Assembly (NCBI GenBank): GCA_014728085.1
Contig: WJMF01000172.1
Location: 1-63,001, forward strand
Direction of reading: 5' to 3'
Origin: Candidatus Zhuqueibacterota bacterium
Lineage (GTDB): Bacteria > Zhuqueibacterota > Zhuqueibacteria > Residuimicrobiales > Oceaniaggregativiventaceae
DNA: 63,001 nt
Shown: positions 1 to 5,166 of the stretch, piece by piece
How the letters are laid out: every line of letters starts with the position of its first letter
Numbering within the stretch: the stretch's first letter is position 1
Notes under the pieces: model-generated
Databases searched by the model: none
The model's input: the letters and a program-made list of their open reading frames with translations, nothing else
What the model was told of the DNA's origin: nothing
Position numbers and translations under genes: made by a program

Positions 1-486
1 ACCGATGCCGTTTCCTGCATCGGAATAGGAATGGATATTGGGCAACTCATCCAAAAGCATGGGAATATCCTGGGCCCAGTAACGCTTTTCGATGTTTTTG
101 CGGCTCATGTTGCTGAACGCCACCGGTGTCCGCCGCTCCTCGGCGCGGTTGGCGGTGACGGTGATGCGCTCCACCGGCAAAACTACCGGTGTCAGATAAA
201 CGGAAATCGTGGTATCGCTGCCAAGCTCGATGCTTTCAATCGCGGTTTCATAGCCGATATAGCTGATCTTCAGACGGTAGCTCCCTTCAGGTAACGCCGG
301 AATAGCAAAATATCCATCTATATCGCTGGTGGTACCGCTTTGCTCCTGTTCGATACTGATGTTGGCACCGCTGAGTGGCTCTTCGGTGCTCTGGTCGTAG
401 ATATGGCCTTTAATGCTGAAATTATCTGCGGCCGGACTGTTAAGGATGAATAAACCTGTAATTAAAAATATAATCCGATGGTACAT
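1..486 (-). CDS. TonB-dependent receptor, N-terminal part (probable thiamine outer-membrane transporter); runs off the window
   Basis: The gene reads on the minus strand from an ATG at 486 and is still open at base 1, giving 162 residues. An AGGAG ribosome site ends 9 bases before the ATG; another in-frame ATG at 495 is too close to it. After a signal peptide (about residues 1-20) comes a carboxypeptidase-regulatory-like domain (about 23-100: GHIYDQSTEEPLSGANI, then a DGYF...LPEGSYRLKISYIGYE core), then the start of the plug domain (VTANRAEERRTPVAFSNM). This order is standard for SusC/FecA-type TonB-dependent receptors of the FCB group. The product would import a ligand across the outer membrane using TonB energy. 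Substrate is inferred from the upstream TPP riboswitch: FCB bacteria have TPP-controlled outer-membrane receptors thought to take up thiamine. The barrel lies outside the window, so substrate residues cannot be checked. Confidence 0.9.
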   Translation of the reverse strand, partial: MYHRIIFLITGLFILNSPAADNFSIKGHIYDQSTEEPLSGANISIEQEQSGTTSDIDGYFAIPALPEGSYRLKISYIGYETAIESIELGSDTTISVYLTPVVLPVERITVTANRAEERRTPVAFSNMSRKNIEKRYWAQDIPMLLDELPNIHSYSDAGNGIG

Positions 487-505
487 GGCAATCATCTCCT
501 TATAT

Positions 506-536
506 AAAAAAAGCCGTTTTCCTGCAGAAAACGGCT
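506..536 (-). terminator. Rho-independent terminator in the riboswitch expression platform
   Basis: On the minus strand a 9-bp stem (528-536 pairing with 512-520, extended by the 521/527 pair) is followed by a run of seven U (506-512). It lies between the TPP aptamer and the receptor's ribosome site, as in a transcription-attenuating riboswitch. Its 5' arm, bases 524-534, can instead pair with aptamer bases 565-575, so it can be disrupted when the ligand is absent. Confidence 0.88.
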
Positions 537-562
537 CGATATATCGATCAAAGTTTTAAGAA

Positions 563-646
563 AACCGTTTCCTGCGCTGGTATTATCCAGATCAAGTTCT
601 GGGGATATGCTCTCAGCCCCGATATGCTCGGAACACTCCCACGGTT
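563..646 (-). promoter_or_regulatory. TPP (thi-box) riboswitch aptamer
   Basis: On the minus strand the hallmarks of the TPP aptamer appear in order: GGGGCUGAGAGCAU, then CUUGAUCUGGAUAAUACCAG, then GCAGGAAAC. An outer P1 stem pairs 641-646 with 563-568. Known function: the aptamer binds thiamine pyrophosphate and switches off thiamine synthesis or uptake genes. It lies about 80 bases upstream of the TonB-dependent receptor start, with a terminator between them, so TPP should favour termination. The family assignment is very secure; the switching direction is inferred from the overlapping pairings. Confidence 0.96.
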
Positions 647-921
647 ATGTAATTCATGTTACAAAATTATTTTTGGATTTGCAAGGAATTAATCCGGCAG
701 AATCCTGATATATCCGCAAAATGATTTAAGCAGAGCAATCTCCAGGTGTTGGTCGATCAAGCCGGCGGAGGATGGTTTTGATCAAAAAAATGAACCTGCT
801 TAATTTTTTGTTTGCATTTATAGAAAAATAATAATATTGTAAATTGCAGCTGTACATAACTTCAGTATTACGCACTTTAGGGGCGTTTGTTCTTCTCGGG
901 AAAAACATAAAGGGGTATGTC

Positions 922-2280
922 ATGCGGGCTCTTTCTTCTATCGTTTTGAGTTTGGTTTTTTTGTCAATTGCAGGCGCTTTTTCTGCAGAGTATTTCAATC
1001 CTGATCATTTTTCACAGAGATCGTTACCGCCGGGTTTGAGCCGGGAGCAGTTCGAACAGCAGATGCAGTCGCAGCAAACGGTGGCGCTGGAATCCTTTAC
1101 GGTTTCAGGGTCGGTGGTTGATCTCGGTGGTCAGGCCATAGACAGTATAGAGGTGGGCATCTACCGCCCGGAACCCTTTTTATATGCTCTAACTTTTACT
1201 GACGAAACCGGTGTTTTTCAATTTGAGGAAATTCCCACGGGGGATTATTATATTTTCTGTAATGGCAACGTTATTGAAGACGGCAACCGCGTACAGCGAT
1301 ATATCCATCAGTATATCGATGGATCCGCTTCATGGCGGGAGGCGGAGGCAATACCGGTGGAGACCAATGTCACCAACATTCATTTCAGCATGGATCCGGG
1401 CTATCACATTTCCGGTCGGGTGGTGGAAAAAAACAGCGGTACGCCTGTGTATCAGGCCATCATCAATCTTTATGAAACGCCATTTGAGCATATTCAGGAC
1501 CGTTATGCTTCTTCCTGGAGCGATGCGGAAGGTTACTTTTTTATCGGTGGTTTACGGCAAGGAGAATATTTGCTCTACCAGACCGGTCTGGTTTGGGACA
1601 GCGGCCTGGGCGGACCGGCTGAAGTTTATATACCCTATTTTTATCTCAACAGCACCACACCGCAAGACGCCGATGCGATTGCGGTTCCCGAATCCAGGGA
1701 TGACATCCTGTTGCAGGTGGAAGGGGGCACCAGCTGTTCCGGAAAACTCGTTGATCAGTCCACCGGCCGGGGCATTTATACTGCCGTTGTACATCTTTTG
1801 GATCGAAACGGACAAAGCGTATCCGAAATCAGGACCAATGCCGGCGGTAACTACACATTTAACAACATCGCTGTGGACACCTATTATATTTATGCCCCGG
1901 GGATTATACTGCGCCGCATCGGCGATGAATGGAACGTCCCTCTGGATCGCTATGCCGGGCGTTATTACGACAATGCCGTTAATATCGAAGATGCGCACCT
2001 GTTTGAGGCCGATCAGAATTACGAAAATATCGATTTTATCCTTGAACCCACAATCGCCATCAAGGGCAGGGTCACCAGAGAGGATAACGGCCTGCCCATC
2101 GCCAACACATGGGTGGAGGCGGACAATGGCCTCGAAGGCGACCTTCACAGGCATTTTCAGGTCCTTACCGATGCCAACGGCGAATACGAGCTTTTTGTTG
2201 AGAAAGGTGGTTATTACATCACAGCCACAGGAGGTGTTCAGCAAGAGGGTGGGCAGGAGAGCAAAATGTTTGTCACATAA
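922..2280 (+). CDS. Secreted multi-repeat carboxypeptidase-regulatory-like protein, 5' part (split by an in-frame stop)
   Basis: The likely start is the ATG at 922, behind an AAAGGGG ribosome site and followed by a signal peptide (MRALSSIVLSLVFLSIAGAF); an earlier in-frame start at 844 has no such support. The 452-residue product contains four copies of a roughly 110-residue carboxypeptidase-regulatory-like fold. Each begins with a [ST]GxV or GRV strand, has a central DaeGyf/DanGeYe turn and ends in a GxYYIxxxG strand. The frame ends at a TAA at 2278-2280 in the middle of the linker after repeat 4. The same frame then continues without another stop to 5166, with eight more repeats and a sorting domain. 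This is therefore most likely the front of one roughly 1,414-residue surface protein. No enzymatic residues are visible; the repeats are generally structural or carbohydrate-associated. Confidence 0.75.
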   Translation: MRALSSIVLSLVFLSIAGAFSAEYFNPDHFSQRSLPPGLSREQFEQQMQSQQTVALESFTVSGSVVDLGGQAIDSIEVGIYRPEPFLYALTFTDETGVFQFEEIPTGDYYIFCNGNVIEDGNRVQRYIHQYIDGSASWREAEAIPVETNVTNIHFSMDPGYHISGRVVEKNSGTPVYQAIINLYETPFEHIQDRYASSWSDAEGYFFIGGLRQGEYLLYQTGLVWDSGLGGPAEVYIPYFYLNSTTPQDADAIAVPESRDDILLQVEGGTSCSGKLVDQSTGRGIYTAVVHLLDRNGQSVSEIRTNAGGNYTFNNIAVDTYYIYAPGIILRRIGDEWNVPLDRYAGRYYDNAVNIEDAHLFEADQNYENIDFILEPTIAIKGRVTREDNGLPIANTWVEADNGLEGDLHRHFQVLTDANGEYELFVEKGGYYITATGGVQQEGGQESKMFVT

Positions 2281-2292
2281 TATCATGATAAT

Positions 2293-5166
2293 GTGCATGA
2301 ACGTTCTCTTGCAACGCGTTTGCAGGTTGACGAGGAGATCACCGGGATTGATTTTGCCCTGGAAACCGGTTTTACCCTCTCCGGTCGCATTACCGATCAA
2401 AGCGACGGATCCCCTGTTACCGGCGTTGCAGTCCTGCTCTATGACCGGATTGAAGGGGGGTGGATCAGCAATACGATTACCGACAGCAACGGAGAGTACC
2501 AATTCAGCGGTATGGCTGCCGATACTTTTTATGTCGGCTCTGACGGTAATGTTCGGCTTTCTGACCAGGAATTTGAACGACAATACATTCCCCGGTTTTA
2601 CGAAAATGCCGACAGATTCGAAGAGGCCACACCCATTATCCTGAACGCAGACCGCAGTGGTATCGATTTACAACTTGAAAAAGGGATCACTCTGTCCGGT
2701 ACTGTGACTTGGGAACAAGACGGCACCGTCATCCCGTTTGCCCGTTTATCCATGGTCGACAGCACGGGAGAAGCGGTTTTCTGGACGATTGCGGATTCGG
2801 CCGGCAACTATGAATTCGAAGGCGTCAGCCGCGGAACCTATTATGTGGTGGCTGACGGGGATGTGGAAACGCATCAGGGTCCGCAACAGGCGTTTATGAA
2901 AACCTGGTACGTCAGCGCCTATACGATGCAGGAGGCAACAGCGGTGGACTTGAATCAGGACACAGATGGTATCGACATCAAAGTGCCGAAGGGATTTACC
3001 CTCTCCGGACGTATAACTGAAAAAGGTACCGGTGCTCCGGTTGCAGATACCGACGTCCGGATTCTCGATCAACAATATGAAGAAATATTAACCACAAGAA
3101 CCGATGCCGAAGGAAGGTACGAGATAAGCGGTCTGCCGCCGGGACAGTACTATATCGAAGCGACAGGTGTGAATTTGCCAACCCGGCAACACACGCATCA
3201 AACCGGATACTACCCCGGGGTTGAGCAGAGAGAAGAAGCGACTCTGGTAGATGTACAAAGCGACACTTCCGGATTTGATTTTTCCCTTTATCGGGTAAAA
3301 TCTATCTCCGGCAGGGTGATGAATGAGAACGCCACCCTGCCGATTTCGAATATAGAAGTCAATGTCTATGATCCACAATGGAATCATCTTGCCAATATGC
3401 CCAGCGATTCGGGTGGCTATTTTCAATTCAGGCAAGTCAGTGCTGATTCGGTTTATCTGCATGCCACCGGTTTTAATTCTTATTTGCAGAAAACGGTATT
3501 CAAAGAAGAGTATTATCCGGAGGCACCCTCCCGGGATGGTGCTGAACTTATTTCTCTGGCGGGGGACAGTAGCGGATTTATCTTTACACTGGATAGGGGC
3601 ATTACCGTTTCCGGTTATGTCAGCGATGCGAAGACCGGTTTGCCTGTTGCGCATGCCGATGTCGAGATTCTCGCGCCTGATTTTGAATTTATCGCCGCCG
3701 CAAGCACCGATTCAGCCGGGCTTTATCAGATCACTACGCTGGATAGCGGCAGTTATTACCTTCGCGCCAGCGGCTGGGTGCGGCCGTGGCATGGAGAACA
3801 CCGGCAGGTCTACCAGGAAAAATATTATCCACAGGCGGAACAACGGCAAGCGGCCGAGCTGATTCGAATTGCGCGTGACAGCTGCTGTTTCAACTTTACC
3901 CTGAGCAAGGGTGCCAGCATCAGCGGCCGGGTGGTGGATGAGGAGGGTCAGCCGGTCAAAGGTGCCATTATCGACCTGTTTAATCAGAACGATGAACCCG
4001 TTATGATGACGGAAACCAATAGCGAGGGATATTATAAATTTGACGGTATCTCGAAAGAGAGTTATTATCTCTTTTGTTTTGGCAATGTGCATCCGGAAGA
4101 TTCCTGGGAGTGGATAAAACAGTATCAACAAAACTGGTATCCGAATTCAATATATAGAGAGGGGGCTCAGCTGGTAGCCGTTGATGGTGAGATCAGCGGT
4201 ATCGACTTTGTGCTCAAATCCGGTTTTAGCATTTCCGGCAGAGTAATGCAGGCAACGGACAGCTCAGTGGTGAAGGATATGTATGTATCGCTCTATGCCG
4301 GCAATTGGTCTCATCTGTTTCATGTGACCAGCGACAGCAATGGTTTTTACAGCTTTAACGGGTTGCTGCCGGAGGACTATTATCTCGAGGTCACCGGCCG
4401 GGTCTGGGATGCCGATCTCAACCTGGAAAAAGAGATTTATTTCCGGCAATACTATCCCGCTGTTTTGCCCCGTGATAGCGCCGAGACTCTTTCCGTGCAA
4501 TCCGATCTCAGCGGAATCGATTTTTATCTCCGTCCTTCCGCCTTTGTTTGCGGCCGCATTTATACCTATGAAGGTGCGGTTCCGATTTCAAATATGCGCA
4601 TTTTGCTCTATGACAGCCTTTGGCAGGTGATGCGGGAGGAGCAAACCCGGCAGGATGGCCGCTATACCATCGGCGGCTTTGATGACGGGTCATACTATCT
4701 CTGTGCTACCGGCGGTATTTGGAATGAATCGATATTCTGGTATGACGATCTTTACCTGCCGGTATACTATCCGCAAACCCGCGATTCGACCGAGGCGCAG
4801 CTTTTAAAGATAGAGGGCGAGGTGATTGGTATCGATATTATGACCAAGCTGCTCACGCAAGTCGTTGAGGAAGAGATCGCCTTGCCGCAAACATATGAGA
4901 TGCATATCTATCCCAATCCTTTTAATCCGCAGACGCAGATAGAGTACAGTCTGCCAAAAAATCAGGAGATAAATATATCCGTATTTAATCTGCGCGGCCA
5001 AAAAATACGAACTCTGGCAGAGGGTTATCACAATGCCGGCAACCATAGGCTCATCTGGCGGGCCGATACTGACAACCGTGCGCCGGTTGCCAGCGGCATT
5101 TATTTCTGCGTCTTCCGCAGTGAAAACAACATTGTGCGTACGCAGAAAATGCTGTTTTTGAAATGA
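2293..5166 (+). CDS. Secreted multi-repeat carboxypeptidase-regulatory-like protein, 3' part with FlgD-like sorting domain
   Basis: This is the in-frame continuation of the gene starting at 922, beginning 12 bases after the TAA. The first possible start (GTG at 2293) has no ribosome site and no signal peptide, so the piece cannot be secreted alone unless the stop is bypassed. It carries eight repeats, recognisable by their first strands (FTLSGRI, ITLSGTV, FTLSGRI, KSISGRV, ITVSGYV, ASISGRV, FSISGRV, AFVCGRI). They are joined by linkers of the type YYP...REEA.....SGIDF. The last 85 or so residues form an FlgD-like C-terminal sorting domain (YPNPFNPQTQIEYSLP, then NLRGQKIRTL, SGIYFCVF, KMLFLK), which in FCB bacteria is associated with export and surface attachment. 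Probably one gene with the 5' part, inactivated or misread by a single base change. Confidence 0.75.
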   Translation: MHERSLATRLQVDEEITGIDFALETGFTLSGRITDQSDGSPVTGVAVLLYDRIEGGWISNTITDSNGEYQFSGMAADTFYVGSDGNVRLSDQEFERQYIPRFYENADRFEEATPIILNADRSGIDLQLEKGITLSGTVTWEQDGTVIPFARLSMVDSTGEAVFWTIADSAGNYEFEGVSRGTYYVVADGDVETHQGPQQAFMKTWYVSAYTMQEATAVDLNQDTDGIDIKVPKGFTLSGRITEKGTGAPVADTDVRILDQQYEEILTTRTDAEGRYEISGLPPGQYYIEATGVNLPTRQHTHQTGYYPGVEQREEATLVDVQSDTSGFDFSLYRVKSISGRVMNENATLPISNIEVNVYDPQWNHLANMPSDSGGYFQFRQVSADSVYLHATGFNSYLQKTVFKEEYYPEAPSRDGAELISLAGDSSGFIFTLDRGITVSGYVSDAKTGLPVAHADVEILAPDFEFIAAASTDSAGLYQITTLDSGSYYLRASGWVRPWHGEHRQVYQEKYYPQAEQRQAAELIRIARDSCCFNFTLSKGASISGRVVDEEGQPVKGAIIDLFNQNDEPVMMTETNSEGYYKFDGISKESYYLFCFGNVHPEDSWEWIKQYQQNWYPNSIYREGAQLVAVDGEISGIDFVLKSGFSISGRVMQATDSSVVKDMYVSLYAGNWSHLFHVTSDSNGFYSFNGLLPEDYYLEVTGRVWDADLNLEKEIYFRQYYPAVLPRDSAETLSVQSDLSGIDFYLRPSAFVCGRIYTYEGAVPISNMRILLYDSLWQVMREEQTRQDGRYTIGGFDDGSYYLCATGGIWNESIFWYDDLYLPVYYPQTRDSTEAQLLKIEGEVIGIDIMTKLLTQVVEEEIALPQTYEMHIYPNPFNPQTQIEYSLPKNQEINISVFNLRGQKIRTLAEGYHNAGNHRLIWRADTDNRAPVASGIYFCVFRSENNIVRTQKMLFLK

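Follow-up and report, generated by a model that had tools for sequence, protein, structure and literature searches.

The leader near the start of the window, the whole 63,001-nucleotide stretch of Candidatus Zhuqueibacterota DNA that we analyzed, is very probably a transcriptional OFF TPP riboswitch acting on a vitamin B1 uptake operon, which comprises a TonB-dependent receptor and an SSS-family symporter, in an apparent B1 auxotroph. This reading is the most likely one because the aptamer, a terminator/antiterminator exchange, aptamer–terminator coevolution in relatives, the operon order and the distribution of ThiE all point to it.

The aptamer matches RF00059 at 650-552 of the minus strand (E 1.2e-11), covering all 105 model positions (1-105), and is the sole match to this family in a genome-wide covariance search of the source genome. 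Its P1 helix is formed by 646-641 with 568-563, the ends of which agree with a TPP aptamer proposed at 563-646 by an earlier note made from the letters alone; the covariance search with the TPP Rfam model suggested there as a check gave a score above the Rfam gathering score. In relatives, the aptamer lies in a thiamine-gene context, heading operons of receptor, SSS and TPK or ThiL genes, and thiC, thiM or thiE occupies the place after the aptamer in others. The element in the window is a well-preserved TPP riboswitch of a little-studied lineage, which would bind TPP. Some leaders elsewhere are followed by other genes. At L059, L061 and L062 (G016, G018 and G019), the first gene after the aptamer is, by eye, a methyltransferase-like ORF of about 240 residues, followed by thiM-thiE and, where the contig permits, thiL-thiD. 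At L070, L075 and L080 (G034, G040 and G046), this position is taken by an ORF of about 353 residues that, by eye, looks like the AIR synthase/PurM fold; next come tenA, thiE, thiL and thiD in L070 and L075, and thiL and thiD in L080.

Table 1. Features of the leader and the receptor start in the window
Feature	Position	Strand	Details
Putative promoter	656..684	minus	-35 TTGCAA (684-679), 17 bases, -10 TAACAT (661-656)
TPP riboswitch aptamer (RF00059)	552..650	minus	cmscan 69.6 bits; cut-off 54.3 bits
Antiterminator 5' strand	565..575	minus	overlaps P1 3' strand and conserved GCGCAGGAAACGG segment
Terminator 5' arm = antiterminator 3' strand	524..534	minus	11 pairs with 575-565
Intrinsic terminator	504..537	minus	stem 537-511 (12 pairs, 3-base loop) and U-rich tail
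Shine-Dalgarno AAGGAG	496..501	minus	sequence; 9 bases 5' of ATG 486
TonB-dependent receptor N-terminus, 162 residues	1..486	minus	signal peptide by eye, CarboxypepD_reg-like domain, plug start

The signals expected around such an aptamer are also seen. A promoter pattern TTG[AC]-N17-20-TA[TA]NNT, defined post hoc after inspection of the relatives, stands just 5' of the aptamer in 25 of the 41 leaders, the window included, versus 1.9% of control stretches. A Bacteroidetes-type promoter (TAnnTTTG) also occurs in the window; it was dropped in favor of the TTG[AC]-N17-TATATT type because only 3/41 leaders have it. Between the aptamer and the start codon, where a terminator had been placed at 506-536, we found a 12-pair, U-tailed hairpin with an energy of -15.5 kcal/mol, the one terminator in a search of 450-950, with 0.4 expected from shuffles.

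The terminator and the aptamer share a mutually exclusive pairing. Bases 575-565 (GCAGGAAACGG) and 534-524 (CCGUUUUCUGC) form 11 pairs with one G-U, exactly as the earlier note had it, and a run of this length is beyond chance, arising in 0.06% of cases when the terminator region was dinucleotide-shuffled 20,000 times. The resulting duplex has an energy of -22.0 kcal/mol, and the window's own terminator ranks first among 36 terminators for the window aptamer. Folding with and without P1, likewise suggested earlier, gave different outcomes along the transcript. With the terminator 5' arm only, the antiterminator (-39.9 kcal/mol) is ahead of P1 (-33.6 kcal/mol) by 6.3 kcal/mol, whereas in the full-length leader P1 plus terminator (-46.3 kcal/mol) is ahead of the antiterminator (-43.9 kcal/mol) by 2.4 kcal/mol. 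Because the fold preference reverses between the partial and the full transcript, a ligand at P1 would have to act before the terminator 3' arm emerges. Thus, the leader has what marks a transcription-terminating riboswitch, namely a terminator and a mutually exclusive antiterminator built with P1 bases, as seen from the pairs, the folding and the coevolution described below.

Of the 99 genomes searched, 73 contain TPP aptamers; we took 41 leaders, 36 of which had terminators usable for a swap test, in which the energy of each leader's own aptamer–terminator duplex was compared with those obtained when terminators were exchanged among the 36 leaders in 20,000 permutations. Own pairs averaged -15.3 kcal/mol versus -12.6 kcal/mol (sd 0.45) for exchanged ones, a mean equaled in 0/20,000 permutations, and when each of the 10 families was represented by a single leader, the median z was -3.9. 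However, the exchange is not universal in the group, given that relatives of family f2 show no strong aptamer–terminator pairing and that the own pair beats its own mean swap in just 24 of 36 leaders. The f2 loci L046, L051, L052, L054, L056 and L058 carry TPP aptamers with long insertions that score 40-45 bits, under the Rfam cut-off, and terminators without clear complementarity to the P1 3' strand; it is possible that f2 leaders use a different expression platform. For the window itself, the covariance score, the folding and the coevolution together support the TPP-dependent terminator/antiterminator switch that the earlier note had read from this leader.

The gene under the switch is incomplete in the window, since the window starts at the contig end. 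The fragment contains a CarbopepD_reg_2 domain (3.2e-21) and has a SusC/RagA-like start. The plug and most of the barrel would lie in the gap between the contigs, and both occur in the family members G001 and G003; among relatives, whole receptors, plug and barrel included, stand under the same switch. Contig C90 opens with a receptor C-terminus (G000:C90:2-382), 44% identical to residues 723-845 of a relative's receptor, which is followed by a PanF-like, SSS-family sodium:solute symporter at C90:404-1783 (locus L103), 60% identical to the SSS protein of G003. The gap between contigs C88 and C90 most likely falls within the receptor gene, and the remainder of the operon probably sits on C90. 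As a result, the full receptor sought by extending the contig was recovered in part, its probable C-terminus by homology, with about 560 residues still missing in between. Relatives show the order receptor-SSS or, in many, receptor-TPK-SSS. The arrangement of omr-type uptake operons, a receptor and then an inner-membrane transporter, is therefore present in relatives and, through C90 by homology, here. Furthermore, a search by protein alone gave six best receptor homologs, from named genomes (KSB1, BMS3Bbin03, Zixibacteria, Electryonea and others), and each of them is preceded by a TPP aptamer (6/6), which also hints at a KSB1-like FCB origin of the window. The switch had earlier been assigned to a receptor; the receptor stands, but the unit is an uptake operon with an SSS symporter rather than a lone receptor. 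Elsewhere in the window, at 844-5166 on the plus strand, two adjacent long ORFs display by eye repeated carboxypeptidase-regulatory-like beta domains, and the second ends in an apparent type IX secretion sorting signal; a frame break near 2290 may have split a single gene into the two.

The gene content of the genomes fits an uptake operon of a vitamin auxotroph, as operons headed by the receptor are confined to genomes that lack ThiE. ThiE was found in 13/13 biosynthesis-led genomes and, above cut-off, in 0/25 receptor-led ones, and the split holds within one family too (5 vs 4); p-values for such counts overstate independence, the genomes being related and some incomplete. In the source genome, which is 97.9% complete, ThiC, ThiE and TPK gave no match, and ThiL is present (292 bits). 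The source bacterium hence seems unable to make vitamin B1.

What the operon carries is less certain. The earlier inference of thiamine import holds for a thiamine compound, given the operon make-up and the ThiE split, whereas its exact form could be thiamine, thiamine monophosphate (TMP) or TPP. The cell could most simply obtain TPP by importing TMP, by importing TPP itself, or from thiamine with an unrecognised kinase. The cargo may be TMP rather than thiamine because the genome has ThiL but no ThiC, ThiE or TPK match. The switch would then work as proposed, the cargo alone differing, and ThiL would turn imported TMP into TPP; we regard this cargo, or TPP itself, as a serious candidate, albeit on the lesser side of the odds. 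It is favored by the presence of ThiL in 5/8 receptor-led genomes without TPK versus 2/17 with TPK (Fisher p 0.017; the counts come from related, non-independent genomes), and by G043 and L033, where ThiL comes after the TPP riboswitch and before the receptor. On the other side, TPK and ThiL occur together in G002 of the same family, neither is matched in three receptor-led genomes, TPK might be encoded in the 2% of the genome that is missing or in a gap between contigs, and TMP could come from a thiamine kinase that escaped recognition, the search of the source genome for such a kinase having returned three broad APH-family matches only. The three genomes with neither enzyme and G002 with both are the reason why we keep TMP uptake as a proposal. 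A somewhat more tentative extension is that the operon is a route for phosphorylated B1, in which the TonB receptor and the SSS protein would feed ThiL directly, and that the final step might switch from lineage to lineage, with TPK serving where thiamine is imported and ThiL where TMP is. In the literature searched, we found nothing directly concerned with KSB1 riboswitches or TMP uptake by TonB receptors.

Irrespective of the exact cargo, we propose the following model for the transcriptional switch. Without TPP, nascent 575-565, the P1 3' side plus adjoining conserved aptamer bases, would pair with 534-524, and polymerase would continue into the receptor and the inner-membrane symporter, the latter placed here from C90; by consuming conserved aptamer bases, this antiterminator would also destroy the binding pocket. 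With TPP bound, P1 would be kept closed and the terminator arm freed, so that the hairpin could form and transcription would end before the receptor. The ligand at P1 would decide the outcome before the terminator 3' arm is made, as proposed for Neisseria thiC (PMC7237195). When the operon is expressed, the thiamine compound would cross the outer membrane by the TonB-dependent receptor and the inner membrane by the symporter. TPP riboswitches can also work on translation, as in Neisseria cytX (PMC7237195), and here the leader might hide the ribosome-binding site with the hairpin being incidental. This is very improbable, since the Shine-Dalgarno site at 501-496 comes after the U-tailed hairpin and it is with the terminator arm that the aptamer coevolves. 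The same site bears out ATG 486, named previously as the receptor start, which is a better start than that of the longest ORF, opening at 495 and abutting AAGGAG. Counting against the proposed model, the transport genes linked to TPP riboswitches in Bacteroides thetaiotaomicron showed no significant thiamine response in RNA-seq (PMC5613172).

The literature describes TPP riboswitches in front of both omr receptors and thiV symporters (PMC2211319), and the Bacteroides gene order OMthi-pnuT-tnr3 (PMC5613172). TPP-controlled outer-membrane receptors are indeed known in FCB bacteria, as the earlier note stated; the omr/OMthi receptors, with Bacteroides BT2390, are examples (PMC5613172, PMC2211319). 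The operon resembles the latter in having a TPP riboswitch 5' of a TonB-dependent receptor and a linked inner-membrane transporter, often with a thiamine pyrophosphokinase-type gene (OMthi-pnuT-tnr3). In contrast, an SSS symporter stands here in the place of PnuT as the inner-membrane partner, and the terminator/antiterminator is clear here, whereas the mechanism in Bacteroidetes is described as uncertain (PMC5613172). It shares with ThiV (SSS/PanF-like; PMC2211319, PMC11452348) a PanF-like sodium:solute symporter in a TPP-riboswitch operon, a likeness at the family level that does not imply orthology; here, however, the SSS gene comes after that of an outer-membrane receptor, and the genomes lack ThiE. 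That the receptor and the SSS protein import the thiamine precursor HMP, as SAR11 ThiV, an SSS protein likewise controlled by a TPP riboswitch, probably does (PMC11452348), is highly improbable, and we rejected this cargo because HMP use needs ThiE, which has no match in the source genome or above cut-off in the 25 receptor-led genomes, so HMP alone would be useless here. In Neisseria and Bacillus, the transcriptional TPP riboswitches of thiC (PMC7237195) similarly use a mutually exclusive antiterminator and intrinsic terminator with P1 in the exchange; unlike the present one, which would control uptake, they control synthesis, and they belong to a different phylum. The kind of system is thus already known from omr, thiV and TPP riboswitches, and the present case belongs to it, with an SSS partner and a visible transcriptional mechanism.

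In summary, this leader offers a clear, testable example in which TPP would act on transcription to govern vitamin uptake through the outer membrane, in an FCB lineage that has seen hardly any experiments; the distribution of ThiE, TPK and ThiL also leads one to ask in which form these bacteria obtain vitamin B1 from their surroundings.
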